From assembly GCA_031272035.1 (NCBI GenBank), contig JAISUO010000097.1, positions 1 through 59,718 on the forward strand: a DNA stretch of 59,718 bases, read 5' to 3'. Under the pieces are notes generated by a model, which did not search any database, was not told the origin of the DNA, and saw only the letters and a list, made by a program, of their open reading frames with translations. Shown here piece by piece: positions 33,775-54,044 of the stretch (the stretch's first letter is position 1; every line of letters starts with the position of its first letter). Source of the stretch: Synergistaceae bacterium (lineage in GTDB: Bacteria; Synergistota; Synergistia; Synergistales; Aminobacteriaceae). The translations under genes and the position numbers were made by a program.

Positions 33775-35088
33775 TTACAATTTTAGGCTGCCTTCCTCGT
33801 CAAAGCGCATCTCCCGGCCCTCTCCCGTCACGGAAAGCCGCGGATGCTTCTCCACGTGGGGCAGCAGTCCCTCCGAAACGTAAATTTCCTCGATCTCCAG
33901 CGTATTTTTGATGTACACCAGCCTGGGAGGCGCCTCCTTGTTGCCCGTGCAGGTCTGAAGGGCAACGGCGACGGCGTCCCGCTCCGTCCGGGCGATCAGC
34001 GGAATTTTCACGCGATCCAGCCGCGTCGCCGTCATGGCGTTGGTGCAGGTGGCGTCAAAGTCAATGCTTTTCACCAGGCGATGCGTGCAGATATCGGCGC
34101 ATCCGATCCCCAGCGCATTGCCGTGGGTCTCCTTCGTCAGCTCCAGCACGACAATTCTCTGAATTTTCAAAGGCCCGTCCGGCATGTGAGCGGCCTGGTA
34201 GCGGCAGGTGATGTTGGGATCCATTCCCACGCCGCTGATGTTTTTCCCCATCTCGCGGACCACCAGAACGTCGATGTCGTCGAAGCAGAGGCGCGCCATC
34301 ATCTCCCGGGAGAGCCGGAGCAGTTCCGGCTCCCGTGCGGCAAAGTTGGACCCCGGAACGGCCTCGATCAGGGCGGGAAGCTCTTTGGCGTTCTCCACGA
34401 CGGCAAGGCCGAAGGGGACCGAGACTTTGCCGAGGACGTACTGCCCCGCCTTCGGAATGACTTCGCTGAAACGTTCGATGCCGTAGCTGTGCATGGTCTG
34501 AGCGCCCTCGTGGTTGCCGAGCCCCACGCAGAGCATTTTGTGCAGACCGCTTTCGATGTCGCCGCGAAACGTGGTGTGATTTTTCACTCGATTGACCGGA
34601 ATGACGCAGTCGGCGCTCTCGTAAGCAACGCGGTCGAACCAGACCGGCAGACCGGGCAGGACATCCCCCAGAGAAACGACCTCCATGGAGGAGTGGATTT
34701 TCGCCCCCATGCTCTCCTCCGTGATCCCGAACTCCTTCAGAAGCGCCGCCTGTCCCTCTTTTGTCGCGCCGCCGTGGCTGCCCATGGCGGGGACGATGAA
34801 GGGGTCGATTCCGTGCCGGCGCAGGGATTCGATCAGGGCCCGGACGATCCGGTCCAGCCCCGCGATGCCCCGGCTGCCCACGGCCAACGCCGCCCTGGTC
34901 CCTTTTTTCAGGGCAGACCCGGCCAGGACGGAATCGACCTGAGACGCAACCCGGGCCTCCACGTCCGTCACACTTTCCGCTTCAAAGTTCTGACGCGCCG
35001 GAAAAATCCGAGGAAACACAAAATCATCCTTCCCGCGAACGCCGGGATAAAATGAACTGCCAGCCTCATTAACCTGAGATTCACTCAT
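33775..35088 (-). CDS. LarA-like (DUF2088, lactate racemase N-domain) protein
   Basis: A 437-residue protein of the LarA superfamily. The N-terminal domain shows ALAVGSRGIAGLDRIVRAL, PFIVPAMGSHGGATKEGQ and the conserved NRVKNHTTFRGDIESGLHK, followed by a distinct C-terminal domain. LarA enzymes use a nickel-pincer nucleotide to racemise or epimerise 2-hydroxy acids; no larBCE cofactor genes are visible, so activity depends on genes elsewhere. Its start overlaps the korC stop by eight bases, so it is part of the kor-suc operon. A role converting a 2-hydroxy acid isomer to the substrate of that pathway is plausible but unproven. Confidence 0.8.
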   Translation of the reverse strand: MSESQVNEAGSSFYPGVRGKDDFVFPRIFPARQNFEAESVTDVEARVASQVDSVLAGSALKKGTRAALAVGSRGIAGLDRIVRALIESLRRHGIDPFIVPAMGSHGGATKEGQAALLKEFGITEESMGAKIHSSMEVVSLGDVLPGLPVWFDRVAYESADCVIPVNRVKNHTTFRGDIESGLHKMLCVGLGNHEGAQTMHSYGIERFSEVIPKAGQYVLGKVSVPFGLAVVENAKELPALIEAVPGSNFAAREPELLRLSREMMARLCFDDIDVLVVREMGKNISGVGMDPNITCRYQAAHMPDGPLKIQRIVVLELTKETHGNALGIGCADICTHRLVKSIDFDATCTNAMTATRLDRVKIPLIARTERDAVAVALQTCTGNKEAPPRLVYIKNTLEIEEIYVSEGLLPHVEKHPRLSVTGEGREMRFDEEGSLKL

Positions 35089-35695
35089 GAGAAAACGCCT
35101 CTCCCTCTTTCAAACCCAGCTCGAAGGCCTGAAGGTTGACGTCCGGCCCTTTTTCCTTTCTGGGCGGAAGCAGGTCGGCAAGGGCCTTTCGAACGGCGTC
35201 GGCGGTCAGAAGACGGACCACGCCGGTAAAAAAGCCCAGGAAAACCATATTCGCCACGTCCGTCCGGTGAAACGTCCCGTCCGCCAGCGCGGTGAAGGGC
35301 ACTCCCAGCGCTTTGCAGCCTTTGGGCAGATCCCCCTTTTCAAAATGCACCAGACCCGCGTCGTACACCAGGCGAACTCCGTCCCGAAGCCATTTTTTGT
35401 TGTTTTCAAAGGCCCGGGGGGCCAGAGTCACCATCACGTCAGGGGCGAGAACCGTGGGGTAGACGATCTTTTCTCCGGAAAGGACGAGGTCCGTGCTCAC
35501 GTCGCCTCCCCGCATGTCAGAGCCGTATTCCTTGGTCAGCACGGCGTTCAGCTCATCGTAAATCGCCGCGGCCCGGCCCAGGATGGTCCCAGCCAGAACG
35601 ACGCCCTGCCCTCCGACGCCGGTGAGGCGAATTTCCGTCCGGCCCGGCCCTGCCTTTTGCGCGTCCCGCTTCAGCTTTCTGCCCGCGTCCGTCAT
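35081..35695 (-). CDS. korC: 2-oxoacid:ferredoxin oxidoreductase gamma subunit
   Basis: A 204-residue gamma subunit. The core reads IRLTGVGGQGVVLAGTILG, and the motif TKEYGSDMRGGDVSTDLVLS is typical of KorC/PorG-type proteins. It forms part of the CoA-acylating oxidative decarboxylase complex with KorA, KorB and ferredoxin. Start at 35695 because it overlaps the korB stop by four bases (ATGA); a longer frame to 36019 lies inside korB and is discarded. The next gene, LarA-like, overlaps its end. Confidence 0.9.
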   Translation of the reverse strand: MTDAGRKLKRDAQKAGPGRTEIRLTGVGGQGVVLAGTILGRAAAIYDELNAVLTKEYGSDMRGGDVSTDLVLSGEKIVYPTVLAPDVMVTLAPRAFENNKKWLRDGVRLVYDAGLVHFEKGDLPKGCKALGVPFTALADGTFHRTDVANMVFLGFFTGVVRLLTADAVRKALADLLPPRKEKGPDVNLQAFELGLKEGEAFSHE

Positions 35696-36558
35696 TTCCG
35701 CGCACCCTCTTTCCCTGAACGGGCTTCCCGCTTCACACGGGCCAGCTCCCGGGTGAACTCCGGAACCTCGGGTCTGCAAAGCAGCTCTCCGACGACAATT
35801 TTTCCCGCTTTTTCCGACTCCGGCAGCTTCACAGCGGCGGCGATGGGAATGGAATTTTCCCGGTAGCCGGCGAGCATGGCCACGGGGTCGTTTCTCATGC
35901 CCACCACCTTGCCGTACTGGACGGGGCACTGAGAGATCACCTCGATGAAGGCAAAACCCGGATGACTGACCGCTTTCCGGAACGACGCCGTGATCTGCGC
36001 GGCGTGCCATGTGGTCCATCGCGCCACGAAAGTGGCCCCTGCCGTTATCGCCAGGGCGCTGACGTCAAAAGGACGTTCCACGTTGCCCAGCGGAGTCGTG
36101 GCGGTTTTCAGCCCGCCGGGAGTGGTGGGGGCCGCCTGTCCCCCTGTCATGCCGTAAATTCCGTTGTTGACGCAGATTACGGTCAGATCGATATTGCGCC
36201 TGCAGGCGTGGATGAAGTGATTTCCTCCGATGGCGCCCAGGTCGCCGTCGCCCTGAAACACCACCACCTTCTGACGGGGAAGCGCGATTTTCAGCCCCGT
36301 CGCCGCAGGCAGCGAGCGTCCGTGGGTGACGTGGAGCAGGTCCCCCGCAAAAGCCGGACTGGGGATCCATCCCGAACAGCCGATTCCCGAGACGAAGGCG
36401 TACTCGTCGATGTTGCCGCCCATGGCCTCGATTCCCTGAAGGACGCTCTGGGCCACGATGCCATTGCCGCACCCGGGGCAGGTGGTGTATTTGATGCCGT
36501 CCCGGAAGTATTTTTCCAGCGGATGCCTGAATGCGTTGGATTTTGACTCTTTCTTCAT
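35692..36558 (-). CDS. korB: 2-oxoacid:ferredoxin oxidoreductase beta subunit (thiamine diphosphate binding)
   Basis: A 288-residue beta subunit. CPGCGNGIVAQSV near the N-terminus supplies iron-sulfur or thiamine-site ligands, and the thiamine diphosphate motif is GDGDLGAIGGNHFIHACRR with NNGIYGMTGGQ after it. The complex oxidatively decarboxylates a 2-oxoacid to the acyl-CoA with ferredoxin reduction. The 390/288/204/71-residue four-gene set matches KGOR-type (2-oxoglutarate) enzymes; branched-chain or aryl 2-oxoacids remain possible. It overlaps korA and korC by four bases each, so the three subunits are translationally coupled. Confidence 0.92.
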   Translation of the reverse strand: MKKESKSNAFRHPLEKYFRDGIKYTTCPGCGNGIVAQSVLQGIEAMGGNIDEYAFVSGIGCSGWIPSPAFAGDLLHVTHGRSLPAATGLKIALPRQKVVVFQGDGDLGAIGGNHFIHACRRNIDLTVICVNNGIYGMTGGQAAPTTPGGLKTATTPLGNVERPFDVSALAITAGATFVARWTTWHAAQITASFRKAVSHPGFAFIEVISQCPVQYGKVVGMRNDPVAMLAGYRENSIPIAAAVKLPESEKAGKIVVGELLCRPEVPEFTRELARVKREARSGKEGARK

Positions 36559-37727
36559 TTCAGAGCCTCCTTTACCCACCGGACCACGTCCTCGGGACGG
36601 GGCAGGCCGCCCAGAATTTCGGGCGTTCCCTTTAAAACCCGGATGTTCTCCGCCACGGCGGCCGCCACGGGGTAATACATCTGTCCCAGGTTGTTTTCGC
36701 AGACGATGACGGCTTTGCAGTGGGCCGTCAGGTCCCGAACGCGTTTTTCGGGGAAGGGCCAAACCGTCGTCGCCCGGTAACAGCCCACCCGGAGCCCCTC
36801 CGAACGGGCGAGTTCCATGCCCGCCAGGGCCGCCCGGAACATGGAGCCGTAAGAATAGAGTACCACGTCCGCGTCCTCAATCCGGCAGGTCTCGTCCAGA
36901 GTGATCTCGTCGATGGCCCTGTGGAGCTTGCCTCGCAGTTTGCGTATTTCGTCGTCCATGGCCGCGATGCTGGCCACGCTGCGGGTTCCGTCCGCGAAGT
37001 GCGTGGAGCCCGTCACGTTGGATTTGAGCCCCCGTCCGAACACGGACATGGGAGCCACGTCTTCATCCAGGAACATGGGAACCTTTTTATCGTAACGCTC
37101 AGGAATTTTTCTGTTGATGACGGGCAGCTCGCCGGGCTCCGGGAAATGGACCTGCTCGTACATATGCCCCACCAGCGCGTCAGACAGCACAAAAACGGGA
37201 GTGCGGTATTTTTCGGCGGCGTTGAAGGCCCAAACGGTCAGGTCGAACATCTCCTGAGGAGAAGAAGGCGCGCAGGCGATGAGCTCGTAGTCGCCCTGAG
37301 AGCCGTACCGGGCCTGGAGCATGTCCGCCTGAAGGGGCAGACTGGGACTGCCGGTGGAGGGGCCGCCCCGCTGGACGTTGACGATGACGCAGGGGGTCTC
37401 CGTGGCCGTCGCGAGGCCGATGTTTTCCAACATGAGGCTGATTCCGGGCCCCGATGTGGCCGTCATGGCCTTCAGTCCCCCCCAGGAGGCGCCGATGACG
37501 GCTCCGATGGCCGCGATTTCGTCCTCCGTTTGAATGAAAAATCCCTCCCGGTCCATCACGCGCTTCACGAAATGCTCGCCGATGTCGGAGGCCGGCGTGA
37601 TGGGATAGGCGGCGAAAAAGCCGCACCCCGCGTAAAGCGCCCCCTCGGCGCAGGCGACGTTCCCCAGGAGAAAGTCCGTTTTGCCGCTCTTTTTGCTTTT
37701 TTTATCGTTCACGTCTTTTTTATTCAT
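36555..37727 (-). CDS. korA: 2-oxoacid:ferredoxin oxidoreductase alpha subunit
   Basis: A 390-residue alpha subunit. Landmarks are LLGNVACAEGALYAGCGFFA, YPITPASDIGEHF, the glycine-rich MTATSGPGISLMLENIGLA, and NVQRGGPSTGSPSLPLQAD, all typical of KorA/VorB-like proteins. The N-terminal lysine-rich stretch (KKDVNDKKSKKSGK) is unusual but lies before the domain. AGGAATATAAAAATG gives the start at 37727. It stands downstream of a ferredoxin gene, separated by an odd AT-rich 14-bp tandem repeat. Confidence 0.92.
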   Translation of the reverse strand: MNKKDVNDKKSKKSGKTDFLLGNVACAEGALYAGCGFFAAYPITPASDIGEHFVKRVMDREGFFIQTEDEIAAIGAVIGASWGGLKAMTATSGPGISLMLENIGLATATETPCVIVNVQRGGPSTGSPSLPLQADMLQARYGSQGDYELIACAPSSPQEMFDLTVWAFNAAEKYRTPVFVLSDALVGHMYEQVHFPEPGELPVINRKIPERYDKKVPMFLDEDVAPMSVFGRGLKSNVTGSTHFADGTRSVASIAAMDDEIRKLRGKLHRAIDEITLDETCRIEDADVVLYSYGSMFRAALAGMELARSEGLRVGCYRATTVWPFPEKRVRDLTAHCKAVIVCENNLGQMYYPVAAAVAENIRVLKGTPEILGGLPRPEDVVRWVKEALK

Positions 37728-37733
37728 TTTTAT

Positions 37734-37797
37734 ATTCCTGAATTTTCATTTCTGAATTTTTCATTTCTAAATTTACATTCCTAAATTTTTATTCCTG
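37734..37797. repeat. Five-copy ~14-bp AT-rich tandem repeat (ATTYCTRAATTT-like)
   Basis: The heptamer ATTYCTR recurs at 37734, 37748, 37763, 37777 and 37791, a period of 14, 15, 14 and 14 bases. Read on the minus strand, the units are YAGRAAT-containing, close to a Shine-Dalgarno core, and the copy nearest korA is its ribosome-binding site. The last copy covers the 3' end of the ferredoxin gene. Copy number slippage could tune korA translation. Confidence 0.75.
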
Positions 37798-38004
37798 AGT
37801 CACGACGATGGCAAAATCGGGACAGTGGATCATGCAGGTTTTGCATTTCGTACACCTGTCCGCCCGACTTTCCACCGTCACGGGAAAATGGACGCCTCTG
37901 GCGTTCAGCTCGCCGGACATCTCCAGCACCTTAACGGGACAAAAAGCCACGCATATGCCGCAGCCCTTGCACCCTTCCGCATTGATCCGAATCAAACGCA
38001 CCAC
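37789..38004 (-). CDS. korD: 2[4Fe-4S] ferredoxin-type delta subunit of the 2-oxoacid oxidoreductase
   Basis: A 71-residue protein with two clusters of cysteines: CKGCGICVAFCP and CTKCKTCMIHCP, each a CxxCxxCxxxCP binding one [4Fe-4S] cluster. It carries electrons from the KorABC complex. Translation starts at GTG 38004 with a GGGGGTG sequence upstream. It lies between sucD and korA on the same strand. Its last codons overlap the tandem repeat. Confidence 0.92.
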   Translation of the reverse strand: MVRLIRINAEGCKGCGICVAFCPVKVLEMSGELNARGVHFPVTVESRADRCTKCKTCMIHCPDFAIVVTQE

Positions 38005-38019
38005 ACCCCCGCACTGAAG

Positions 38020-38883
38020 TCACAGCAAAAAATCGCAGATCGTGTCGATGGAGGAAGCCACTCCGGCCCCCGCTTCTTCGAGACACCGGGTTTTGTATTC
38101 GATGGTTCCCGTCTGGCCCCGGATGATGGCGCCGGCGTGGCCCAGAGTCCGCCCTGCCGGCGCGCTTCGTCCGGCCATGAAGAAAACCACCCGTTTTTTC
38201 ATTCGGGCGACCTGTTTCGCCGCGCCAACCTCCGCTGTTCCTCCGATTTCACCGACCACCACCACGGCGTCGGTCTCGGGATCTTCCTCAAACATCTCCA
38301 GCAGCTCGCTCAGGGAGGTTCCCGTCACGGGATCGCCCCCCAGGCCCACAACGGTGCTCTGTCCGCAGCCCTTCTCCCCGAGGTACCCCGCCACTTCGTA
38401 GGCCAGAGTGCCGCTCCGGGAGATCAGGCCGACCCTGCCGGCCGTGAACATGTTCCCCGGCAGAATGCCCAGCTTGCCGATCCCCGGTGAGATAAGCCCC
38501 GCGCTGTTGGGGCCGATCAGGGTTGTTCCCCTTTCCCGGGCGAAGCATCTCATCTGAAGCGTATCGTGAACGGGAACGTGCTCAGGGACCGCCACGATCA
38601 GGTTCATACCGGCCGCCGCGCTCTCCAGAACGGCGTTTCGCAGCAGCGGCGCCGGAACGAAGAGCACCGTGGCGTTGGCCTGTCGCTCCGTCACCGCGTC
38701 GGCGACGCAGTCGTACACCGGCAGATCCCCAAATTCCTTCAGAACCTCTCCCCCGTGGCCGGGAGTCACCCCCGCCACGATTTTCGTCCCATATTCCAGC
38801 ATCCACTCCGTCTGTTTTCGTCCGATGCGCCCCGTCGCGCCCTGAACGACAGCCCGGGTTTCCTTCGTCAGCAGTATGCTCAT
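38020..38883 (-). CDS. sucD: Succinyl-CoA synthetase (ADP-forming) alpha subunit-like
   Basis: A 287-residue SucD-family protein. The N-terminal CoA-binding Rossmann region is VVQGATGRIGRKQTEWMLEY, and the phosphohistidine loop is conserved in RTLGHAGAIIRGQTGT. It forms acyl-CoA plus ADP and phosphate to acid plus ATP with SucC. The ATG overlaps the sucC stop by four bases (ATGA). With the Kor genes following, it should convert the acyl-CoA formed by oxidative decarboxylation into ATP; whether succinate or another acid is released is unknown. Confidence 0.92.
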   Translation of the reverse strand: MSILLTKETRAVVQGATGRIGRKQTEWMLEYGTKIVAGVTPGHGGEVLKEFGDLPVYDCVADAVTERQANATVLFVPAPLLRNAVLESAAAGMNLIVAVPEHVPVHDTLQMRCFARERGTTLIGPNSAGLISPGIGKLGILPGNMFTAGRVGLISRSGTLAYEVAGYLGEKGCGQSTVVGLGGDPVTGTSLSELLEMFEEDPETDAVVVVGEIGGTAEVGAAKQVARMKKRVVFFMAGRSAPAGRTLGHAGAIIRGQTGTIEYKTRCLEEAGAGVASSIDTICDFLL

Positions 38884-40052
38884 TTTCTGAAAGTCCCTTT
38901 CGGCTTAAACGTCCCTTCCGACGCCATTTTTTCCAGCAGCAGGTCCACGGCCTTTTCCGTATGGACGTTTTTGACCACGGGCAGCCCCGCGTCTTCCACG
39001 ATTTTCCAGGCCGCCTCCTGCTGATTTCCCAAAATTTTGACGACCACGGGAATTTTTCCGGAGCATTCCTTCCATCCGGCCACGATGCCCTCCGCAGCGG
39101 CGACCATGGGATTGACCCCCCCGTAAAGGTTGATGATGAGGCCCTGCACGCGAGAATCGTTCATCAGAAGTTTCACGGAGTCCCGCATCAGGACGGCGTT
39201 GATGCCTCCGCCCGTTTCGAGGAAATTCGCGGCCGCGGCCCCTCTCGAAGCGAGGATGTCCATGGTGTTCATGGCCAGTCCCGCGCCGCTGGCGATGACC
39301 CCCACCGTTCCCTCCGTCAGGACGCAGGTCACGCCGATCTCGAAGGCCTGCCGCTCCATGGGGTTCGTCAGGGCGTCCTTCGCGCTTCCCATTTCGGGAT
39401 GCCGGAACAGCGCGTTGTCATCGGCCTCCATTTTCGCGTCCGCGGCGACCACCGCGCCGTTTTTCAGAACCGCCAGGGGGTTGATTTCCGCCAGCATCAG
39501 GTCCTGAGAGAAGAAAAGCCGCCCCAGCCTCCAGGAGACGTCGGCCAGTTTCAGCAGAAGGGGCCCCTGAAAGCCCAGCTTCCGCCACACGCTTCGCACC
39601 TCGTATTCCTCGGGGGGCTTCAGCGGAGAAAAGGTCGTCCGGGAAATGGCCGCCGCGTCCTTTTCCGCAGCCGACTCAATGTCGACGCCTCCGGACCGGC
39701 TGACCAGCATATCCACCGCGCCCTCGTCGGCGTTCAGGCCAAAGCTGAGATACAATTCACTTTCAATGTCGAGTTTTTCTTCGACCAGAACTTTTTCCAC
39801 AAGGCATCCCCGATGGGTTTTGCCGAAAATTTCCTTCGAAACTCGTTCCGCTTCTTCCGGAGATGAGGCGCTTCGAACCAGCCCCGCCCTGCCCCGGCCT
39901 CCGGCCGGGATCTGCGCCTTCAGGACGCAGTCCCCCGTCGCTTCTTCCGCGAGAAGGCGAACCTCCCCGGGGGAAGAAGCCACCTTTCCCTTCGGAAGAG
40001 GAATTCCCGTTTTCTCTAAAAGTCCCTTACCCTGAAATTCGTTCAGTTTCAT
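38880..40052 (-). CDS. sucC: Succinyl-CoA synthetase (ADP-forming) beta subunit-like
   Basis: A 390-residue SucC-family protein with an N-terminal ATP-grasp region: MKLNEFQGKGLLEKTGIPLP, KAQIPAGGRGRAGLV, and the C-terminal INLYGGVNPMVAAAEGIV. It binds ATP and acid and works with SucD. The ATG at 40052 follows GGAG at about 14 bases; a GTG at 40079 has no site. It is the first gene of the sucCD-kor-LarA transcript. The spacer upstream contains one copy of the 87-bp repeat and no convincing promoter. Confidence 0.9.
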   Translation of the reverse strand: MKLNEFQGKGLLEKTGIPLPKGKVASSPGEVRLLAEEATGDCVLKAQIPAGGRGRAGLVRSASSPEEAERVSKEIFGKTHRGCLVEKVLVEEKLDIESELYLSFGLNADEGAVDMLVSRSGGVDIESAAEKDAAAISRTTFSPLKPPEEYEVRSVWRKLGFQGPLLLKLADVSWRLGRLFFSQDLMLAEINPLAVLKNGAVVAADAKMEADDNALFRHPEMGSAKDALTNPMERQAFEIGVTCVLTEGTVGVIASGAGLAMNTMDILASRGAAAANFLETGGGINAVLMRDSVKLLMNDSRVQGLIINLYGGVNPMVAAAEGIVAGWKECSGKIPVVVKILGNQQEAAWKIVEDAGLPVVKNVHTEKAVDLLLEKMASEGTFKPKGTFRK

Positions 40053-40095
40053 CCTGCCGTCTCTCCGATCCGGGTTCACTTCACAAAACGTCAGA

Positions 40096-40182
40096 TATTT
40101 AATTATGCAAAATTATGGTGTGATGATGATAAATTTACTCCTTCATCAGGGAGATGTCCAATAAATAAATTCCATAACAATT
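40096..40182. repeat. 87-bp direct repeat, left copy
   Basis: These 87 bases are identical to 49830-49916 (checked base by base). The right boundary abuts the stop codon of the M29-like gene, and the left boundary lies about 45 bases before sucC. The two copies flank the entire aminotransferase-liv-frd-peptidase transcription unit. Read on the minus strand, the repeat ends a short open frame with LDISLMKE and a stop, perhaps the tail of an old transposase. Confidence 0.9.
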
Positions 40183-41184
40183 TTACCTGGAGCCTGGCAG
40201 GGCCTTGCAGGCTATACCCGTTACGGGTTTGCCGTCTTCCACGATGAGTTTTCCATCTACCCTGAAAGTGGGGCTCCAGTAGACCATATCCAGGTGCAGA
40301 GGCGCTTTGTTCACGCCGCCCTGACGGGTATTGTCTCCCACGGCAAAATGCCCCGTACCGTAACGCCCTTCGTCATAAATGATCTTGCCGCAAACCGGTG
40401 AGAAGGGATTCAGGCCTACGGCGATTTCCGCTATGGCGTAAACGTTGGGATCCTGCGCGTCCTCCAAAATGGTTCGAAGCTGGGTTGCTGACGTACCTCC
40501 CTCGATTTTGACGACCTTTCCCTTTTCAACGAAGAGCTTCACAGGGCTGTCGACCAGCCCGATTCCCATGGAGGCGCTGGCGTCGATGACGATGACGCCT
40601 TCACCCTCAGTCTCAATGGAGGGGACGTTGGCCTCAATATCCGGAAAGCCGCTTCTCATGCCAGGCTCGTGGCATATGCAGGTGTTGACGATGCCCCCCC
40701 GGCCTACAATGGAGGCTTTGAAATCCGTTCCTCCGGGGGAGGTGACGTGAATCTCCCGGCCCTCGTCGAAAAATTTGCCCAGTGCCTTCACCACAGGGCT
40801 GATAGCGACGAAGTCCGCCTCCACTCCATTTCGGATGAGAATCCACTCATCGCATTCGGTCAGACTGAAAAGGCGCGCGCCCTTGTTGCAGGCGTCCAAA
40901 GTGGCCTTCGTATGGAAAAGGGTACGAGTGGTGGGAGAAAGGATAACGTCAGCGGCCTGCATGGCGGCGGCTACAACCGCTGAGGGTTCTCCCCCTGTTT
41001 GAGGGACGGGCATCGTGATGATGTGAGCCGCAATATCCATTTCTCTGGCCGCCATGTACAGCGCCCTTGAAACGACCTCCGGAGACATCGTGTCCGTCAC
41101 GATCAGCAGTTTCTCACCCTTCTTCATCCCCGCGCAAACCTCAAGCAGAACGCGCGCGCCTTTCATCATTTCCAGCATCAACAT
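40183..41184 (-). CDS. M29-type aminopeptidase-like metalloprotein
   Basis: A 333-residue protein of the aminopeptidase T / NicX-like family. Putative metal ligands match the M29 pattern: Glu in DIEANVPSIE, Glu in IAEIAVGLNP, His in TGHFAVGDN, and His-X-Asp in PLHLDMVYW. Family members are peptidases or, in NicX, ring-opening dioxygenases; the latter is unlikely in an anaerobe. Start at 41184 because GGAGGTGCAGAG lies seven bases upstream; the frame from 41199 begins upstream of it. It is the last gene of the liv-frd operon and its stop touches the 87-bp repeat. A peptidase supplying amino acids to the pathway would fit. Confidence 0.8.
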   Translation of the reverse strand: MLMLEMMKGARVLLEVCAGMKKGEKLLIVTDTMSPEVVSRALYMAAREMDIAAHIITMPVPQTGGEPSAVVAAAMQAADVILSPTTRTLFHTKATLDACNKGARLFSLTECDEWILIRNGVEADFVAISPVVKALGKFFDEGREIHVTSPGGTDFKASIVGRGGIVNTCICHEPGMRSGFPDIEANVPSIETEGEGVIVIDASASMGIGLVDSPVKLFVEKGKVVKIEGGTSATQLRTILEDAQDPNVYAIAEIAVGLNPFSPVCGKIIYDEGRYGTGHFAVGDNTRQGGVNKAPLHLDMVYWSPTFRVDGKLIVEDGKPVTGIACKALPGSR

Positions 41185-41212
41185 TCTCTGCACCTCCAAA
41201 GATTATTTCCCG

Positions 41213-41875
41213 TTATTTCATTGCAGCGATCAATCGACAGGGGTCCGCTTTATGCGGACAAACTGCGGAACATCGCCCGCATTCGACGCATTTCACGATT
41301 CCACTCCCTTCCAGAGCGGCTTCATGGCTGCCTCCGTTCCGGGGGTCGAACAGGATCTTCGCTATACGCGCAAAAAGAGCGGGGCCCCAAAAATTGTGAG
41401 GATGCCGTCTTTTCACAGGGCAAACAGCCTGGCAGCATCGGCAGTTTACACAACGGCCCGCCAGATACCGCAGTTCCAGCCGCCCGTCCAAAATCCGTGC
41501 TTCAGGGAGAGTGGTGCTCCCGGGGTGGAAATGGGGTAAAAAAGAAAATTCCCTCTCCGCAGAGTCTCTGCGCACGATTAAATCCTTTTCCGGCAGGAGA
41601 TGAGCCAGCGGCGTCAGAGTCATGTTACGGGAGGCCTCCTGCTTACAGACGAGAGCGGGCTGACCGTCGACCATAACGCCACATAACCCGCAGCTGCCGT
41701 CCCGACAGCCCCAACGATAACTCAGGTCCCGGTCATATTTTTCACGCACCTGATGCAGCACATCCAGGACCTTTATGCCGGGAATATAATCAAAACTGTA
41801 GTCCTCGTAATGCGGCGCTCTGTCGATGGAGGGGACAAACCGCAGTATCGTCACGATACCCTTCATTTTCAGCAC
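41213..41875 (-). CDS. frdB: Fumarate reductase/succinate dehydrogenase-type iron-sulfur subunit
   Basis: A 220-residue FrdB-like protein. The [2Fe-2S] site is RWGCRDGSCGLCGVMVDGQ with a later Cys in PALVC; two further clusters use CVNCRCCQAVCP and CVECGRCSAVCP. The arrangement matches SdhB/FrdB, giving three iron-sulfur centres that pass electrons to the flavoprotein. GTG start at 41875 with GGAG five bases upstream, overlapping the frdA stop by seven bases. No membrane anchor subunits follow, so the enzyme is probably soluble or uses another partner. Confidence 0.9.
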   Translation of the reverse strand: MLKMKGIVTILRFVPSIDRAPHYEDYSFDYIPGIKVLDVLHQVREKYDRDLSYRWGCRDGSCGLCGVMVDGQPALVCKQEASRNMTLTPLAHLLPEKDLIVRRDSAEREFSFLPHFHPGSTTLPEARILDGRLELRYLAGRCVNCRCCQAVCPVKRRHPHNFWGPALFARIAKILFDPRNGGSHEAALEGSGIVKCVECGRCSAVCPHKADPCRLIAAMK

Positions 41876-43548
41876 CCCGGCTCCATATACTTCAGTTCCA
41901 CATCCCGGCAGTCCGTCATGATTTCCTGGTTCCGCAGTGAAACATAAAAATTCTTCAGGTAATTTTTGTTGTCCATTTCAGGCCAGTCGGTTCGGTTGTG
42001 GGCCCCCCGGGATTCTCGCCGACACAGAGCAGAAGCGGTCATGGCGAGCCCCACCAGAACCATATTGCGGTTTTCGAAGCTCTGAATCACGTGAAGAGGA
42101 GAGTCCTTCACCTCCAGCCGCATGGGCAGATCCTGAAGCTTTTTCAGCGCAGTCAGTGCTTCGGTCAAACTTTCCTCCCTGCGCAAAATTCCGGTCTTTT
42201 CCCACATGATTTTCCGCACCTGGCGTCGGTATTCTTCAACATCCACCCCCTCTTTTCTTTTTTGGAGAACTGAAATGTGGTTTTCAATACCCTGGCAACA
42301 GGAAGGAGGCAGAGAAAACGCCATTTTTTGTTGTTTCAGCGCGTGTTGCGCCGCGTTGCGTCCGGCTGTAAAACCGGAGACAAGAGCCTCGGTAAGAGCG
42401 TTTTGGCTCAGGCGGTTTGCGCCGTGAACTCCGCCGCAAACCTCACCCGCTCCATATAATCCCGGAAGCGGTGTTCCCCAGTTTTCGTCCACGGCGACGC
42501 CACCCATCGTAAAATGCACGGTAGGAGCCACTTCAAGCATCTCCCTGTGAGGGTCGAAGCCGATGGATTTGTAGGTTTCGAGAAGATCCGGCATTTCCCG
42601 TTCCATGACCTCAGGGGTCAGATGCTGAAAACCCGCAAATACGCCTCCCGATGGGGAGCCCCGTCCTTCCTGAATCTCCTGCATGATGGCGGCAATCAGA
42701 GTATCGCGGGTAGCCATCTCGATTTTTTCGGGATTCCAGCGCTCCATAAAGCGTTCACCCTTCGCGTTGAACAGGCGGACACAATTGATATAAGCGGCTT
42801 CCGCGCCCTTAATGGAGGGCGGGGACAAAAAGCCCAGAGGATACACCTGAACAAATTCCATATCCATCAGGCTCAGCCCCAGCCGTAAGGCCAAAGCCAG
42901 ACCGTCGCCGGTGAGATCCGGCGGATTGTCCGAGTTTTCGTAAAGATACCCAGCGCCCCCGGTGGCCAGAACCAGAGACGCGCATTCAAACAGCAGAGGC
43001 TCCAGAGTATCCATGTCGAGCCCCAGGACGCCCCGTACACCGTTTTGATCCTTAAGAATTTCGAGAATGAAGACATTTTCGTAAATGGGAACCTGCCGTT
43101 TTATCAGCTCCCCTGTCAGCGTCCCGCAAAGTTCCCGTCCGATGTGATTCCCCAGATAGAGGGAACGGGGATAACTGTGACCTCCATCCGTCCGGAGCGC
43201 ATAGGAGGTTCCGTTTTCCGTGCGCTGAAACAGAGCTCCCATTCGTTCCATTTTCTCTGCAGCTTCTGCTGCCCCTTCCACCATCGCTTTGACCAAATCC
43301 TGTTTGTTCAGATACTGTCCGCCTGCAAGAGTATCTCGAAAATGGCACTCTTTACTGTCGTTCGGAGATTTCCAGGCCTCCCCCACCGCCGCGAAGGACC
43401 CTGGAGCCATGATGGTCGCACCGGTATGAGGGGTGTAACCCTTGTTGACGACCGCCACCCTTGCGCCCTCTTCCGCTGCGGCCGAGGCGGAGGCCAATCC
43501 TGCTCCGCCACTGCCGATCACCGCCACGTCATACAAAAATCGTTTCAT
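41869..43548 (-). CDS. frdA: FAD-binding fumarate reductase-type flavoprotein subunit
   Basis: A 559-residue FrdA/SdhA-family flavoprotein. The FAD dinucleotide fold opens with YDVAVIGSGGAGLASASAA, and the motif around YTPHTGATIM contains a His at the position where FAD is often covalently attached. FTMGGVAVDENWGTPLPGLY and the ANRLSQNALTEALVSGFTAG block are conserved catalytic-domain elements. It reduces a double bond in a dicarboxylate or other unsaturated acid, or oxidises the reverse. Substrate specificity is uncertain, since the loop differs from that of classical fumarate reductases. Encoded right after livF and before frdB. Confidence 0.88.
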   Translation of the reverse strand: MKRFLYDVAVIGSGGAGLASASAAAEEGARVAVVNKGYTPHTGATIMAPGSFAAVGEAWKSPNDSKECHFRDTLAGGQYLNKQDLVKAMVEGAAEAAEKMERMGALFQRTENGTSYALRTDGGHSYPRSLYLGNHIGRELCGTLTGELIKRQVPIYENVFILEILKDQNGVRGVLGLDMDTLEPLLFECASLVLATGGAGYLYENSDNPPDLTGDGLALALRLGLSLMDMEFVQVYPLGFLSPPSIKGAEAAYINCVRLFNAKGERFMERWNPEKIEMATRDTLIAAIMQEIQEGRGSPSGGVFAGFQHLTPEVMEREMPDLLETYKSIGFDPHREMLEVAPTVHFTMGGVAVDENWGTPLPGLYGAGEVCGGVHGANRLSQNALTEALVSGFTAGRNAAQHALKQQKMAFSLPPSCCQGIENHISVLQKRKEGVDVEEYRRQVRKIMWEKTGILRREESLTEALTALKKLQDLPMRLEVKDSPLHVIQSFENRNMVLVGLAMTASALCRRESRGAHNRTDWPEMDNKNYLKNFYVSLRNQEIMTDCRDVELKYMEPGC

Positions 43549-43554
43549 GAGGGT

Positions 43555-44268
43555 TCAGATTCCCAGATAAGCCTGCACAATGTCCTCATGCCGAAGGTCC
43601 TCGACTTTACCGGATGTGGTAATGTCTCCCACGTCCAGAAAATAGGCCCGTTCGGCGACTTCAAAGGCCATCAGCGCGTTTTGTTCCACCAGAAAAATGG
43701 TGGTTCCCAGTTTCGCGATTTCTGAAATTTTTAAGTACAGATCATGAATAATAATAGGCGCCAGCCCCATGGATGGCTCGTCCATGATCAACAGCCGGGG
43801 TTCAGCCATTAAGGCTCTTCCCACCGCCAGCATCTGCTGTTCTCCTCCGCTGAGGGTCCCCGCAATCTGCCTGCGGCGTTCATAAAGCTTGGGGAAAAGG
43901 CTGTAAACTTTGTCGTACAAATCTTTTTGCTTATGCTTTCCAATGTTGCTGTAAGCCCCCAGCTCCAGATTTTCCGCCACGCTCATTTCTCCAAATACGT
44001 GTCTTCCCTGGGGAACGTGGATTATTTTTTTCCGGAGGACGATGTTTTCCGGAGCCCAGTGGGTGATCTCTTCGCCGTCGAAGAAAATTTTTCCCTGAGC
44101 CGCTCTCACAAGGCCACTGATGGTACGCATGAAAGTCGTTTTCCCAGCGCCGTTGGGCCCCAGAAGCGCTACGATTTCATTTTCGTTGACGCAGACAGAA
44201 ACTCCGTTCAACGCTCGACTTTTCCCATAAAAAACGCTTAATCCGAATACATCAAGCAACACGCTCAT
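43555..44268 (-). CDS. livF: Branched-chain amino acid ABC transporter ATP-binding protein LivF
   Basis: A 237-residue LivF-type ATPase. Walker A is LLGPNGAGKTTFM, the signature GTLSGGEQQMLAVGRALM, Walker B PRLLIMDEPSMGLAP, and the H-loop region VEQNALMAFEVAERAYF. It energises import with the LivG domain encoded in the upstream fused gene. The start overlaps the livMG stop by four bases (ATGA). Downstream lies frdA, seven bases on, so the transporter and reductase are co-transcribed. Confidence 0.94.
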   Translation of the reverse strand: MSVLLDVFGLSVFYGKSRALNGVSVCVNENEIVALLGPNGAGKTTFMRTISGLVRAAQGKIFFDGEEITHWAPENIVLRKKIIHVPQGRHVFGEMSVAENLELGAYSNIGKHKQKDLYDKVYSLFPKLYERRRQIAGTLSGGEQQMLAVGRALMAEPRLLIMDEPSMGLAPIIIHDLYLKISEIAKLGTTIFLVEQNALMAFEVAERAYFLDVGDITTSGKVEDLRHEDIVQAYLGI

Positions 44269-46100
44269 GCGATCCCCTCCTGCAATCCCCCTGCACCGGC
44301 GGGCGAACGGGAAGCAGCCCCGATATAAGCGGCAATAACTTTGGGATCCTTCATGACTTCGGCCGGCGCTCCATTCGCGATCAGTTTTCCATAGTCAAGA
44401 ACAATAATGCGGTCTGAAATATTAGAAACGAGCTTGATGTCATGTTCTATGAGCATCACAGAAACGCCGCTGTCCACGACCTTGCGGATCATTTTGCTCA
44501 TTTCCTCTTTTTCGATCTGGTTGAGGCCGGCTGCCGGTTCGTCGAGCAAAAGAATTTCCGGATCCAAAGCGAGGCTTCGCGCGATTTCAAGGTGTTTTTG
44601 GAAACCGTAGGGAAGGTTGATGCAAAGTTCGTCTTCCAGCCCGTCGAAGCCCCCTACAAAAGCGAGAAGGCGTCTCGCGTCCTCACAATTTTTTGTCCAG
44701 GGGCGCAGCAGTTCCCTCACTCTGCCAGAAAATTCGAACTGCAGATGTCTGCGATGGGTGGCCACACAAACGCTTTCCATCACGGTCAGGCTGTCGTAAA
44801 TGCCCAGATTCTGGAAGGTACGAACCATCCCCAGGCGTGCGATGCTGTGAGGATACAAACCGGTGATATCTTTTTCCTTCAGCCAGACCTTCCCGCTGTC
44901 AGGCCTGTAGATGCCGGAAATGACGTTGAAGAGCGTCGTTTTGCCGGCGCCGTTGGGCCCTACCACAGACAGAAGTTCTCCCTTTTTCAGCTCGATGCCC
45001 ACTTCGCTGAGCGCGGAAATTCCGCCGAAATCTATCCCCAGATTCTCGGTTCGAAGAACGGACTGCTCTTTGTCCGCGGTTCGTCGGGGATCGCCGGAGG
45101 ATACCACGAAGGTACCCTGAACTCCGGAAACGCCTTTTTCCCGGTCCTTTTTCCCGGAAAGCCCTCGAATGCAGTTTTCCAGAAAACCGCCCACTCCCTT
45201 GGGGCAGAAAATCACAAACAGGAGGACCATAAGCGCGTAGACAATGACCTGGTATTCACCAAAGGCCCGCAGATATTCAAAAGCCACCGACAAAACCGGA
45301 GTCATCAGCAAAATACCCGTGAAACTGTGAATTCCTCCGACCACCAGCATCTGCACAAAGGAAAAGGAAACCCCCGAAGTGAAGGCGTCAGGATGGATCA
45401 TGCCGTAATAGCCGGCATAAAAAATTCCCCCAATACCAGCCAGAAGAGAATTGAGGAATACCGCAAGAACCTTGATGCGAAAGGTATTAATGCCTATGGC
45501 TTCGGAAACGATTCCGTTCGACCCCGAAGCTTTCAGCGCCAGCCCCAGGTTGGATCGAAGCAAAAGATAGACAAGTACGATGCAGGTCAGACCGACGCCC
45601 AGGATAAAAAGATAAATCTGGGGCAGAGTTGTCAGAGGAAAGGCAAAGGGCCGCATTTTCGGAATTTCTCTTATGCCCATCCCGCCTCCGGTAATACTTT
45701 GCCAGTTTTGGATGATAATTCTCGTGATTTCGCCGAACCCGAGAGTCACCATCGAAAAATAAATCCCTGAAACCTTCATGGTGGGGAAGCCCAGAATCAC
45801 GGTGGTCAGAAACGCGATAAGCACAACCGCCGCCACAGACAGCCAGAAGGGCATTCCCGCCCGAGCCGTGATGCTGTAACCATAGGCTCCAAGGGCCCAA
45901 AAACTGGCCTGAGCCAAATTCATCTGTCCTGAAAGCCCCGTCATCAGAAAGAGCCCCAGAACCAGCAACAAATTCATCACGGAAATAATTCCAACATGAT
46001 AAATATAGTGTTGGTCGAAGATAAAGGGCAGGGCCATCAGGCAGAGCAGAACGACGATGAAAACAGAGGATGAGATTTTTTTATCTTTTATGTTTGTCAT
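44265..46100 (-). CDS. Fused branched-chain amino acid permease LivM and ATPase LivG
   Basis: A 611-residue fusion. Residues 1-310 are a LivM-type permease with multiple hydrophobic segments, including LFLMTGLSGQMNLAQASFWA and ASGSNGIVSEAIGINTFRIK. A linker at about 311-348 rich in Lys, Gly and Ser follows. Residues 349-611 are a LivG ATPase: Walker A VVGPNGAGKTTL near 381, Walker B DPEILLLDEPAAGLNQIEKE and LIEHDIKLVSNISDRIIVLD. LivM and LivG are usually separate; fusions occur in some lineages. It overlaps livF by four bases and follows livH by 13 bases. The uninterrupted frame argues against an artefact. Confidence 0.92.
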   Translation of the reverse strand: MTNIKDKKISSSVFIVVLLCLMALPFIFDQHYIYHVGIISVMNLLLVLGLFLMTGLSGQMNLAQASFWALGAYGYSITARAGMPFWLSVAAVVLIAFLTTVILGFPTMKVSGIYFSMVTLGFGEITRIIIQNWQSITGGGMGIREIPKMRPFAFPLTTLPQIYLFILGVGLTCIVLVYLLLRSNLGLALKASGSNGIVSEAIGINTFRIKVLAVFLNSLLAGIGGIFYAGYYGMIHPDAFTSGVSFSFVQMLVVGGIHSFTGILLMTPVLSVAFEYLRAFGEYQVIVYALMVLLFVIFCPKGVGGFLENCIRGLSGKKDREKGVSGVQGTFVVSSGDPRRTADKEQSVLRTENLGIDFGGISALSEVGIELKKGELLSVVGPNGAGKTTLFNVISGIYRPDSGKVWLKEKDITGLYPHSIARLGMVRTFQNLGIYDSLTVMESVCVATHRRHLQFEFSGRVRELLRPWTKNCEDARRLLAFVGGFDGLEDELCINLPYGFQKHLEIARSLALDPEILLLDEPAAGLNQIEKEEMSKMIRKVVDSGVSVMLIEHDIKLVSNISDRIIVLDYGKLIANGAPAEVMKDPKVIAAYIGAASRSPAGAGGLQEGIA

Positions 46101-46113
46101 GATGTTCGTCCTG

Positions 46114-47040
46114 TTAAAGTTTTTCGCTCGCTTTTTTGGCGAACAGCCCCGTGGGGCGAATCAGAAGCACGGCGATCAGAACGATGAAAGCGACCGTATT
46201 TCTATACCCTGCTCCCACGAAAGCGGCTCCAAAACTTTCCAGAACGCCCAGAAGCAACCCCCCGCAAATCGCTCCCGGCACGCTGTAAATTCCCCCCAGA
46301 ATGGCGGAAGAGAACCCTTTCAGTCCCAGGATCTGCCCATGAGCAAAATACGCAAAAATAATGGGAGATACCAGAATCCCCGCAACTGCCCCAAGGACAT
46401 AGGCAAGAGTGAAGGTGGCCTGAATGCTGCGGCGAACGTTGATCCCCATCAGAGCCGCGGCTTCCTTGTCCAGAGCCACCGCACGCATCGCCTTGCCGGC
46501 CCTGGTTTTGTAGAGAAACAGCTGAAGCAAAAAAACGATAAGCGCTGCGATACAGAGAATCCACAGGTTAATGGAGGGAAAGATAATACTTCCTGCCTGT
46601 ATAACGGACCTGCCGATAGGCAGAGAAAAGAAACGCGGTTCTCCGGTCCATATGATTTTCGCGGTATTTTCAAGAAGAACGCCCACAGCCAGAGTGGCCA
46701 CAAGAACGTTCATTTTTTCATAGTTTACGTTTCGAAGTTTCAGGGAGCTTTTGAAGGTCGGTTCGTGCACCATTTTATGGATAACAACGGAAATAAGAGC
46801 TGAAACGCAGCAGGCAAAGGTCAGTACAGCCATAAGTGTAAGAAGAGGCGGAAAATTTTTAGGAAGCAGGGTTAAAGCGGTTATTCCCAGAAAACCGCTG
46901 AACATTACGGCAGGTCCCTGAGCGAAATTGAGAAGTCCCATGGTTTTCCATATCATGGAATATCCCACGGCAATCAGAGAATAGACAGCCCCTATTGCAA
47001 GGCCTCCTATCAGATATTGCATAAAAATCGGCAATGGCAT
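46114..47040 (-). CDS. livH: Branched-chain amino acid ABC transporter permease LivH
   Basis: A 308-residue permease with about eight hydrophobic segments. Family blocks are GLAIGAVYSLIAVGYSMIWK, LNFAQGPAVMFSGFLG, AVALDKEAAALMGINVRRS and GFSSAILGGIYSVPGAICGG. It pairs with the LivM half of the fused gene in the inner membrane. It lies 226 bases downstream of livK; that spacer contains a 101-bp MITE-like element. No strong promoter was recognised there. Confidence 0.94.
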   Translation of the reverse strand: MPLPIFMQYLIGGLAIGAVYSLIAVGYSMIWKTMGLLNFAQGPAVMFSGFLGITALTLLPKNFPPLLTLMAVLTFACCVSALISVVIHKMVHEPTFKSSLKLRNVNYEKMNVLVATLAVGVLLENTAKIIWTGEPRFFSLPIGRSVIQAGSIIFPSINLWILCIAALIVFLLQLFLYKTRAGKAMRAVALDKEAAALMGINVRRSIQATFTLAYVLGAVAGILVSPIIFAYFAHGQILGLKGFSSAILGGIYSVPGAICGGLLLGVLESFGAAFVGAGYRNTVAFIVLIAVLLIRPTGLFAKKASEKL

Positions 47041-47118
47041 TTATTCCACCTCGCTTTAAGGTCTTTTATTCAATCTGCCACAAACAGAAATAAGGGGCAA
47101 AAGCAAACCTGTTATTTA

Positions 47119-47219
47119 ATACCAATTTGAAGTCAAAGGCCTAAAGTTAGAATAGCTAAAAGCAATGACATTCAAACATTAGCTTCTTTATTGATACTTA
47201 ATTGAAAGCAAATTGGTAT
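47119..47219. mobile_element. 101-bp MITE-like element, copy A (livK-livH spacer)
   Basis: The element begins ATACCAATTTG and ends CAAATTGGTAT, giving an 11-base perfect terminal inverted repeat. An internal inverted repeat AGCTAA/TTAGCT is present. It matches the copy at 49998-50098 at about 90 of 101 positions by eye. It sits between livK and livH, so its transcript would fold into a structured intercistronic RNA. No transposase is encoded inside, typical of a non-autonomous element. Confidence 0.75.
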
Positions 47220-47265
47220 AAATCACCGGCTCGTTTTGCCCCTTTGCCGCAGATTATTTACACTG

Positions 47266-48402
47266 TTACTGAACCTGTACAGCACTGGTGCGCCAGACGC
47301 CGTCCTGAACCTGGAAAATGTAAATGGTAAGAACGCCCTGTCCGTTGGACAGGAAGTGGTTCCCCTTCTGACCAAAGGCATCCCACTGTACGGTCTTCAG
47401 GGCATCTGCTACGGCCGCGTTGTCTTTGGTTCCCACTTTTTCCCAGGCTTTTGCCAGCGCGACAATGGCCTGATAGGTGTTTGTGGAGTGGTGAGAGGGG
47501 TCCATATTGTATTCCTTGCGATAGCGTTCCACGTATTCCACGGCTTCCGGTTCCTTCATGGTGGCGACAAAGGGTCCCACACCGTAAACGTTGTCCGTAT
47601 CGCCGGGGGCCAGCTCAATATAACGAGGAACGGCGATGCCGGTCATGATAATCTGGAACTTATCGGAACTCAAACCCAGCTGTCGGCTCTGGCGGGTGAT
47701 GAAAGAGGCCTCAGGAAGATTCGCGAAAAGTCCCAACCCCTCGGCGCCGGCCTGCTTTATCTCCAGAAGCTGGGGGGTGAAATCCAGATCGCCCACGTTA
47801 AAACTCTGGATGGTAACGGGTTTAACGCCCAAATCTTCGAGAGCCTTTACAAAATAGTCCCTGCAGCCCATGCCGAAATCGGAGGTGTCGCTCAGAACTC
47901 CAATTTTCTTCAATCCCAGTTTTTCCACAAAGAAGCGGGCGGCCCGAGTGGCTGCAATTTCGTCGCTCTGATGGAGGCGGAAGAAATATTTATTGTCCGG
48001 GCCCGTCAGCTTGGGATTGGAGCCGGAAGTCGTTATGGTGGGGACGTGCTGAGCCTCGGCAATTTCCTTGCATACAAAAGCCAGGGTGCTATTCGCTCCG
48101 CCGATAATGGCGTTGACCTTGTGCTGAGAGATCATACGGATCAGAACGGAAGAAGCCTGAGCCGGATTTCCGGCATCGTCTTCCACCACCAGTTCCAGCT
48201 TGCGACCCTGAATGCCTCCCGCCTTGTTGATATCATCCGCTGCATCCTGAGCTCCGTTGCGCATGTGAATCCCGTACGCCGCAGCTCCTCCCGAAAGCGA
48301 AACACACAGGCCCACTCGAATCGGTTCCTGCTCTGCCGCATAAGCTCCGCTCGCACATGACAACGCCAAAATACACAATCCCAAAATAATTTTTTTCATC
48401 AT
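47266..48402 (-). CDS. livK: Branched-chain amino acid ABC transporter substrate-binding protein
   Basis: A 378-residue type I periplasmic receptor with a signal peptide (MMKKIILGLCILALSC, then ASGAYA before AEQEP). The mature start IRVGLCVSLSGGAAAYGIH is the family pattern, followed by KLELVVEDDAGNPAQASSVL and AIIGGANSTLAF. Such receptors bind leucine, isoleucine, valine, aromatic or related amino acids, or their derivatives. ATG at 48402 is preceded by GAGGTAAGAGCA; a frame from 48423 starts upstream. It lies between the aminotransferase gene and livH. Confidence 0.93.
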   Translation of the reverse strand: MMKKIILGLCILALSCASGAYAAEQEPIRVGLCVSLSGGAAAYGIHMRNGAQDAADDINKAGGIQGRKLELVVEDDAGNPAQASSVLIRMISQHKVNAIIGGANSTLAFVCKEIAEAQHVPTITTSGSNPKLTGPDNKYFFRLHQSDEIAATRAARFFVEKLGLKKIGVLSDTSDFGMGCRDYFVKALEDLGVKPVTIQSFNVGDLDFTPQLLEIKQAGAEGLGLFANLPEASFITRQSRQLGLSSDKFQIIMTGIAVPRYIELAPGDTDNVYGVGPFVATMKEPEAVEYVERYRKEYNMDPSHHSTNTYQAIVALAKAWEKVGTKDNAAVADALKTVQWDAFGQKGNHFLSNGQGVLTIYIFQVQDGVWRTSAVQVQ

Positions 48403-48514
48403 TGCTCTTACCTCATTTCTCATTAAGAATGTGGTTTTAATTCAGAATTCGCTTCAACATTTTTTGCGCTTTTTTTACTCCTTGCGGCACCTCCTTCAAA
48501 ATCGTCCTGTTGAG

Positions 48515-49690
48515 TTATTTTTCCAGAGACAGGAGACAGGTTTTCATGCGTTCCAGCCCCGGCTGCATCAAGTCGCAGGAAATTGTGTAGGCGAGGCGTA
48601 CGTGATATTCTCCCCCTTCACCGAAAGCAGAACCGGGGACGGTGGCCACATGTGCTTTTTCAATCAGAAAATGTGCGAAGTCGAGAGAAGTCATACCATA
48701 TTTTTCAATGGAAGGGAAAACAAAAAACGAACCTTCCGGTCTGGGGCAGCTCAGCCCCATTTCGTCCATATACTTCATGACCATCTTTCTGCGGCGATCG
48801 AACTCCTGTCGGATGTCCTCTACGCAATCCTGAGAGGCTTCAAGGGCATGAGCCGCCGCAATCTGTACAAAGGTATTGGCGCAGGACACGAGATGCTGAT
48901 GCATTTTTGTAATACCTTCAATCAGGCTCCGGGGCGCCGCGATATAGCCGATCCTCCAGCCGTCCATGGCATACGTCTTGGAAAAACTGGCGACGATAAC
49001 CGTCCTTTCCTTCATTCCGTCCAGACTGGCAATATTGAAGGCCTTGTTTCCCTCATACACAAAGCTGCTGTAAATGTTGTCGTATAAAACCGTGATGTCG
49101 TGTTTGGCACAAATTTGCGCAATATTCTCCAAAACAGGGCGTTTCCATATTTTCCCCGTAGGGTTATGAGGGCTGGTCAGAATCAGCACCCTGCTTTTGG
49201 GCGTGATAATTTTTTTCAGTCGTTCAATGTCCACCTCAAATTCCTTTCCCGTGAGGGGGAGAGAAACGAGAGTTCCTCCGCACAGGGAAGTCCACCCTTT
49301 GTAGTACGGGTACATCGGGGATGCAACAATGACTTCGTCCCCCGGATTCACGAGGCTGGCCAGTACGGCGTAACCCCCCTCACCGCCGCCCATTGTGGCT
49401 ATAATTTCGTCCGGAGAATAGTACACACCATCGTCTGCTTTGAGGCGGTGAGACACAGCCTCGCGAAAAACCTTCTCTCCGCTGGTAGGGGAATAATGGA
49501 CTTTCCCCTGTTCCATCGCGTCAATCGCCGCTTTTTTGATGTGAGCAGGAGTGTCGAAATCGGGCCTTCCTATTGTCAGGTTGCAGATGTCGATCCCCTG
49601 CGAGATCAAATCCTGTGCAATCGTCGCTATTCTCCGTATAGGAGAACTTTCCAGAAGACATACTCTGGAAGCAATTCTATTTTCTGACAT
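48515..49690 (-). CDS. Class I/II pyridoxal-phosphate aminotransferase
   Basis: A 391-residue aminotransferase of the aspartate/aromatic type. Substrate and cofactor residues: NLTIGRPDFDTP near the N-terminus, the PLP-stacking LILTSPHNPTGKIW, the Schiff-base Lys in ASFSKTYAMDGWRIG, and a C-terminal Arg in EYHVRLAYTIS that normally binds the substrate carboxylate. It converts an amino acid to its 2-oxoacid with 2-oxoglutarate or similar as acceptor. ATG at 49690 follows AGAAAGAAG; the GTG at 49699 is an alternative. It is the first gene of the operon, so the imported amino acid is probably its substrate. Confidence 0.92.
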   Translation of the reverse strand: MSENRIASRVCLLESSPIRRIATIAQDLISQGIDICNLTIGRPDFDTPAHIKKAAIDAMEQGKVHYSPTSGEKVFREAVSHRLKADDGVYYSPDEIIATMGGGEGGYAVLASLVNPGDEVIVASPMYPYYKGWTSLCGGTLVSLPLTGKEFEVDIERLKKIITPKSRVLILTSPHNPTGKIWKRPVLENIAQICAKHDITVLYDNIYSSFVYEGNKAFNIASLDGMKERTVIVASFSKTYAMDGWRIGYIAAPRSLIEGITKMHQHLVSCANTFVQIAAAHALEASQDCVEDIRQEFDRRRKMVMKYMDEMGLSCPRPEGSFFVFPSIEKYGMTSLDFAHFLIEKAHVATVPGSAFGEGGEYHVRLAYTISCDLMQPGLERMKTCLLSLEK

Positions 49691-49717
49691 ATTATTCACT
49701 TCTTTCTGACTTTAAAA

Positions 49718-49746
49718 ATTATAAACATATATAAACGGTTTTTCAA
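49718..49746 (-). promoter_or_regulatory. Promoter of the aminotransferase-liv-frd operon
   Basis: On the minus strand TTGAAA (49746-49741) and a perfect TATAAT (49723-49718) are separated by exactly 17 bases. Transcription would begin near 49711, about 20 bases before the ATG. It lies inside the segment bracketed by the 87-bp repeats, so the whole unit carries its own promoter. Confidence 0.8.
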
Positions 49747-49829
49747 GTGCTTAACTATATTTTTATCATGTATAAATAACTTTTTAATATAGATTAAGCG
49801 AGACTGATGAAATTTTTATAACATCAATT

Positions 49830-49916
49830 TATTTAATTATGCAAAATTATGGTGTGATGATGATAAATTTACTCCTTCATCAGGGAGATGTCCAATAAAT
49901 AAATTCCATAACAATT
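49830..49916. repeat. 87-bp direct repeat, right copy
   Basis: Identical over 87 bases to 40096-40182 and in the same orientation, about 9.7 kb away. It lies about 85 bases upstream of the aminotransferase promoter. Perfect identity of two non-coding copies suggests a recent duplication or an integration event. Confidence 0.9.
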
Positions 49917-49997
49917 ATTAGAAAAACTAATATATCGTTTAGATTGGTGGTGCAACCTTCCGATGGGAAAATTTCGAGGGGAAAAAGATAAGACTTC

Positions 49998-50098
49998 ATA
50001 CCAATTTGAAATAAAAGGCCTAAAGTTAGAATAGCTAAAAGCAGTGATATTCAAACATTAGCTTCTTCATTAACGCTCGGTTGAAAGCAAATTGGTAT
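49998..50098. mobile_element. 101-bp MITE-like element, copy B
   Basis: Same length and orientation as copy A, with the same 11-base terminal inverted repeat ATACCAATTTG and the internal AGCTAA/TTAGCT pair conserved. The roughly 11 differences cluster in one part of the right half. It lies between the right 87-bp repeat and the ATC-hydrolase terminator. Confidence 0.75.
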
Positions 50099-50135
50099 CA
50101 GGTCTTCACTTCGACTTCAAACTGGCATGAAAACA

Positions 50136-50169
50136 GGCCCGCGGACGCTGCTGCTGCCGTCCGCGGGCC
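50136..50169 (-). terminator. Strong rho-independent terminator of the D-aminoacylase-dpp-ATC hydrolase operon
   Basis: A perfect 12-base GC-rich stem (GGCCCGCGGACG with CGTCCGCGGGCC) with a 10-base loop is followed on the minus strand by TGTTTT. It lies about 33 bases after the stop of the last gene. Confidence 0.85.
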
Positions 50170-54029: not shown

Positions 54030-54044
54030 CGTTCTCGTCTCCCT

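Follow-up and report, generated by a model that had tools for sequence, protein, structure and literature searches.

An operon of likely foreign origin between identical direct copies of a probable sucC promoter region in a Synergistaceae bacterium

Eight co-directional minus-strand genes lie between two copies of an 87-bp sequence, here called R, within the 59,718-nucleotide stretch of DNA that we analyzed (the window). The gene set begins with an aminotransferase gene and ends with a gene encoding an M29-like protein (Table 1). As the original prediction had stated, the R copies are perfect and have the same orientation. They match at 87 of 87 positions with a spacing of 9734 bp, and given this length a chance origin of the pair is no concern. 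When R was mapped in the whole genome, a MAG of 3,177,165 bases in 122 contigs, it was present at exactly these two places rather than being dispersed at unrelated sites.

The predicted gene content (aminotransferase, liv transport genes, frd-like genes, M29-like gene) was recovered in full, and a consensus scan found a predicted promoter for the operon that matches the consensus at 11 of 12 positions, in agreement with the claim that the unit has its own promoter. No integrase, as claimed, and no transposase was found among the eight genes identified inside the insert. The weak point of the annotation is the label "M29 peptidase". The protein scored barely above the Pfam cut-off (27.3 versus 27 bits), no solved M29 peptidase was matched in the PDB search and the sole significant match was to NicX, a 2,5-dihydroxypyridine 5,6-dioxygenase. 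As NicX is the nearest solved structure, the designation of this protein as a peptidase is uncertain. At the C-terminus of the protein there is also a tail of some 10 residues that is missing in most of its homologues and is perhaps a product of the junction. The left R copy and the stop codon of this gene (plus-strand TTA, 40183-40185) are directly adjacent, with zero bases between, as had been noted.

Table 1 Features of the locus in window coordinates.
Feature	Position	Strand	Basis or remark
Host cluster: por/kor-like subunits, sucD, sucC	33775..40079	-	Collinear in G003 and G006
R, left copy	40096..40182	-	Native sucC upstream region, still adjoining sucC; sucC side collinear with G003
Promoter-like site in R, TGGACA-17-TAAATT	40132..40160	-	Consensus scans; second copy at 49866-49894
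Inserted segment, 9647 bp	40183..49829	-	Missing between sucC-R and flank in G003; GC below neighbors
M29-like/NicX-like protein, last gene of operon	40183..41199	-	Pfam PF02073; PDB 7cn3, E 4.7e-15
FrdB-like iron-sulfur subunit	41213..41875	-	Pfam; TIGR00384 above cut-off
FrdA-like flavoprotein	41869..43548	-	Pfam; best NCBIfam relative TfrA-like, below cut-off
LivF-like ATPase	43555..44268	-	
LivM-LivG fusion (permease and ATPase)	44265..46100	-	
LivH-like permease	46114..47040	-	
MITE copy between livH and livK	47120..47218	.	TAA on both sides
LivK-like binding protein	47266..48423	-	
Class I/II aminotransferase, first gene of operon	48515..49699	-	
Promoter-like site of operon, TTGAAA-17-TATAAT	49718..49746	-	Consensus scan
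R, right copy	49830..49916	-	Upstream of inserted operon, still adjoining native flank
Native right flank common to G003	49917..49938	.	16/22 matches, shuffle p ~4e-4

R is AT-rich (26% GC) and its left copy precedes sucC, for which there are two start candidates: GTG 40079, which is 16 bp past R, and ATG 40052, which is 43 bp past R and is the sucC start common to two other genomes examined, G003 and G006. The promoter-like site within R fits a sucC promoter as a predicted consensus match, and in G003 both hexamers are kept at equal spacing with a changed spacer sequence. Hence, R is probably the sucC promoter region. The short frame ending in LDISLMKE that had been pointed out in R was confirmed, and its G003 equivalent ends in LDIRILKE; we gave this frame no weight because it overlaps the promoter-like hexamers. 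The suggestion that R might be a leftover IS end did not hold up: R is native sucC upstream DNA that can be aligned with that of G003 and it has no further copies. A role of R as a structured RNA was also discarded, its fold being no better than those of shuffled sequences (z 0.21). An Rfam search of positions 39900-50300 gave zero matches, and the R pattern was not found in the viral contigs searched.

Of 60 relatives searched for R, a single one carried it: G003, a Synergistaceae MAG of another genus, in which the sequence is 85% identical over 53 bp. The G003 contig has the order por subunits, sucD, sucC, a single R and then a different gene, and the cassette is absent. Its DNA is 81% identical to that of the window over 3.65 kb, from porA through sucC and up to the last base of R. 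When G003 was aligned to a junction model composed of the left flank, R and the right flank of the window, the match went past R into the right flank and scored 489, versus 468 for the real left junction, where the alignment ended at R. In an ungapped comparison the 22 bases of G003 past R gave 16 matches to the right flank versus five to the cassette, and this homology past R is short, about 22-25 bp. By these alignments each R copy is native on its outer side, and the extra DNA is the 9.65 kb that separates the copies.

The empty site that had been foreseen was thus found: G003 has one R next to sucC and no cassette, but the dpp operon expected on the other side is absent there. This empty site is known from one genome only, that of a different genus. 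It nevertheless answers the question of whether the operon is conserved at this locus in all relatives, since G003 lacks it. G006 has the por-sucCD genes without the cassette and without R, and carries other genes upstream; hence, among these relatives the por-suc cluster is conserved and the sucC upstream region is variable. The two congeneric MAGs taken as controls (G001 and G002, both incomplete) gave no sucC match.

Composition and distribution were then considered. The GC contents of all eight cassette genes (0.496-0.570) are below those of each of the 13 other window genes tested (0.591-0.644). The cassette is therefore low in GC relative to its neighbors, but only partly so relative to the genome (sample mean 0.569, s.d. 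0.038), and both its GC and its codon usage fall within the overall range of the genome, such that composition by itself is weak evidence against the whole-genome background. At E<=1e-120, three of 188 Synergistota genomes have FrdA; one is the present genome, and the proteins of the remaining two are 47% and 44% identical. LivMG reached 37% identity at best among 83 genomes of the family, and in the order, families other than this one contain relatives of the M29-like protein with identities of up to 44%. The gene order of the cassette was seen in none of the regions inspected in relatives, and a search of plasmids for a donor gave only relatives of below 60% identity. Acquisition of the operon from outside by horizontal transfer is well supported by these sequence comparisons.

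The insert contains a MITE copy having a 99-bp core with ends TACCAATTTG and CAAATTGGTA, and a second window copy is at 49999-50097. The family has some forty copies in the genome (49 matching pieces), and those examined have three-base TNA repeats at their ends, a target that suggests what we presume to be an IS5-type transposase. There is also a longer form (roughly 153-155 bp), and several further genera of the family contain divergent relatives, which in G020 are clusters of a ~35-bp core. The nearest relatives of the cassette MITE are copies in its own genome (94%); in other genera, identity did not exceed 86% in matches of <=49 bp or 83% across 65 bp. This affinity argues against a contaminating contig and places the encounter of the cassette with this MITE family in the present lineage or a close relative. 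An attempt to date the insertion by this MITE was abandoned. The 94% value first suggested an old event, in conflict with the identical R copies, but in a comparison of 31 copies the cassette MITE showed just a single private substitution. Hence, there is no conflict with the identity of R and no date can be taken from the MITE.

The block between the R copies has a perfect two-copy repeat, a single-R empty site in a relative, homology of its outer flanks to that site, a lower GC than its neighbors and a sporadic distribution. On these observations we consider it to be an insertion, with a probability of about 0.85. For the route, we lean somewhat toward a single crossover of a circularized fragment that carried R, the route and the circle both being inferred. 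In E. coli, when conjugated DNA had one segment homologous to the chromosome, most integrants carried duplications of 109-950 bp where sequenced, and these were ascribed to a single crossover of circularized molecules that were missing part of the segment (PMC3240628). The ancestral locus would have been sucC, R and the right flank, with R as the sucC promoter region. A fragment from a close relative, brought in by transformation or conjugation, would have carried the operon beside some 87 bp from the region upstream of sucC and would have been circularized through end joining. Campbell-fashion recombination of the circle with the chromosomal R would then leave R on both sides of the operon. 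Following integration the left R copy would still serve sucC, and the operon would be preceded both by its own promoter and by the right R copy. This route requires a donor in which R was already beside the operon, and hence it shifts the first joining elsewhere.

A reading that dispenses with such a donor is an unusually long target duplication, in which, as foreign DNA was being joined, the chromosome was cut or nicked at points 87 bp apart or template switching copied the segment a second time, R being doubled in repair synthesis. This accounts for the perfect identity of the copies and has exactly the right topology, one R in the empty site and two identical copies around the insert. However, in the IS1202 group 16-28 bp already counts as unusually long (PMC10132070), which is far short of 87 bp, and neither a transposase nor terminal inverted repeats accompany the insert. 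No inverted pairs of at least 25 bp were found in the window (shorter ones were judged by eye only), and the inner ends of the insert, read by eye, differ from each other. Moreover, Ku was not found in this genome or in 20 relatives, and we regard a target duplication as unlikely. The same direct repeats, empty site and foreign-looking cargo would be expected of a site-specific genomic island having the R copies as attL and attR, with an integrase that was lost or acts in trans. This is improbable, given that the integrase gene is missing from the insert, that R is a fast-changing intergenic promoter region and neither a tRNA nor a gene end, and that the genome has no second insertion site or further R copy. 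A bolder version, in which a trans-acting recombinase recognizes the sucC leader, swaps metabolic cassettes and duplicates the promoter to serve both guest and host operons, would, if true, represent a novel mode of promoter-targeted cassette integration, but we hold it to be extremely improbable. Least credible is a composite transposon or a pair of leftover IS ends: although cargo does lie between direct repeats, R occurs nowhere else in the genome, neither a transposase nor inverted ends are present, and R is native to the region upstream of sucC in another genus.

The direction of the event could also be reversed, with the cassette ancestral and lost from G003. Recombination between the R copies would give exactly the G003 arrangement, and in Haloquadratum, indels with short direct repeats at their boundaries were interpreted as deletions (PMC3119063). 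However, R copies of such age should differ, just as R itself does from one genus to the other (85% identity over 53 bp). In addition, FrdA and LivMG hardly occur in the family and the G006 por-suc cluster has neither cassette nor R; loss from G003 is thus quite improbable. Finally, a contaminant or extrachromosomal segment could have been joined at R in assembly or binning, as the genome is a MAG of 122 contigs, an exact 87-bp repeat can tangle short-read assembly and a separate circle bearing R would yield an identical graph. The affinity of the cassette MITE to copies of its own genome (94%) speaks against this, and both R-cassette junctions would need to exist physically in any case. We consider an artifact very improbable.

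The acquired unit is a whole catabolic operon that encodes no mobility gene, and both junctions and the empty site can still be read. The direct repeats would also permit scarless loss by R x R recombination. As R is the probable sucC promoter region, the host operon would be left with its promoter and the newcomer placed directly upstream of, and in line with, the 2-oxoacid oxidoreductase/CoA-ligase cluster. No terminator-like site was found between the stop codon of the M29-like gene and sucC, and thus transcription may run from the inserted operon on into sucCD-por. Co-transcription, we assume, would chain amino-acid uptake, transamination, 2-oxoacid oxidation, ATP formation by the CoA ligase and a fumarate-reductase-like electron sink. 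Expressed together, the operons would be a ready-made pathway of amino-acid oxidation.

To the right of R, two adjacent ATC-hydrolase-like genes (50202-52007) lie beside the dpp operon, and four more relatives form an array on another contig of the genome (C74, 5632-9025). An ATC-hydrolase gene sought as a right-hand anchor was not found in eight relatives searched, and the ATC-hydrolase-like genes are possibly a second acquired block, right of R. Farther on, the frame at 54022-54867 gave no hit in Pfam and its codon usage is highly unusual, with GC3 at the 1st percentile; the overlapping same-strand frame at 54045-55067 is probably the real dpp permease.

The term mobile cassette, used in the original prediction, claims more than was observed for the present-day locus: the insert showed no recombinase, terminal inverted repeats, second location or sign of a circular form. 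We see no sign of a new mobile element. An integrase-mediated genomic island or IME shares the foreign-looking cargo, direct repeats and defined site, but here integrase, tRNA target and other R copies are lacking and the target is the intergenic region upstream of sucC. Transposon target-site duplications likewise have one copy in the empty site and two identical copies in the occupied site, but they span a few to 28 bp (PMC10132070) rather than 87 bp, and the present case is without transposase or terminal inverted repeats. In Haloquadratum walsbyi, strain-specific segments have a direct repeat at each end and one copy in the other strain, although those repeats are usually <20 bp and the authors read them as deletions (PMC3119063). 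Campbell-type integration in E. coli conjugation gives direct copies of a host segment that bracket the insert and are single when the site is unoccupied, and there too the insert needs no recombinase; the differences are that the event here is natural, that 87 bp is slightly under the 109-950 bp range and that the circle is inferred (PMC3240628). The event thus belongs to a familiar type, in which an operon gained by horizontal transfer is bracketed by two copies of a host promoter region.
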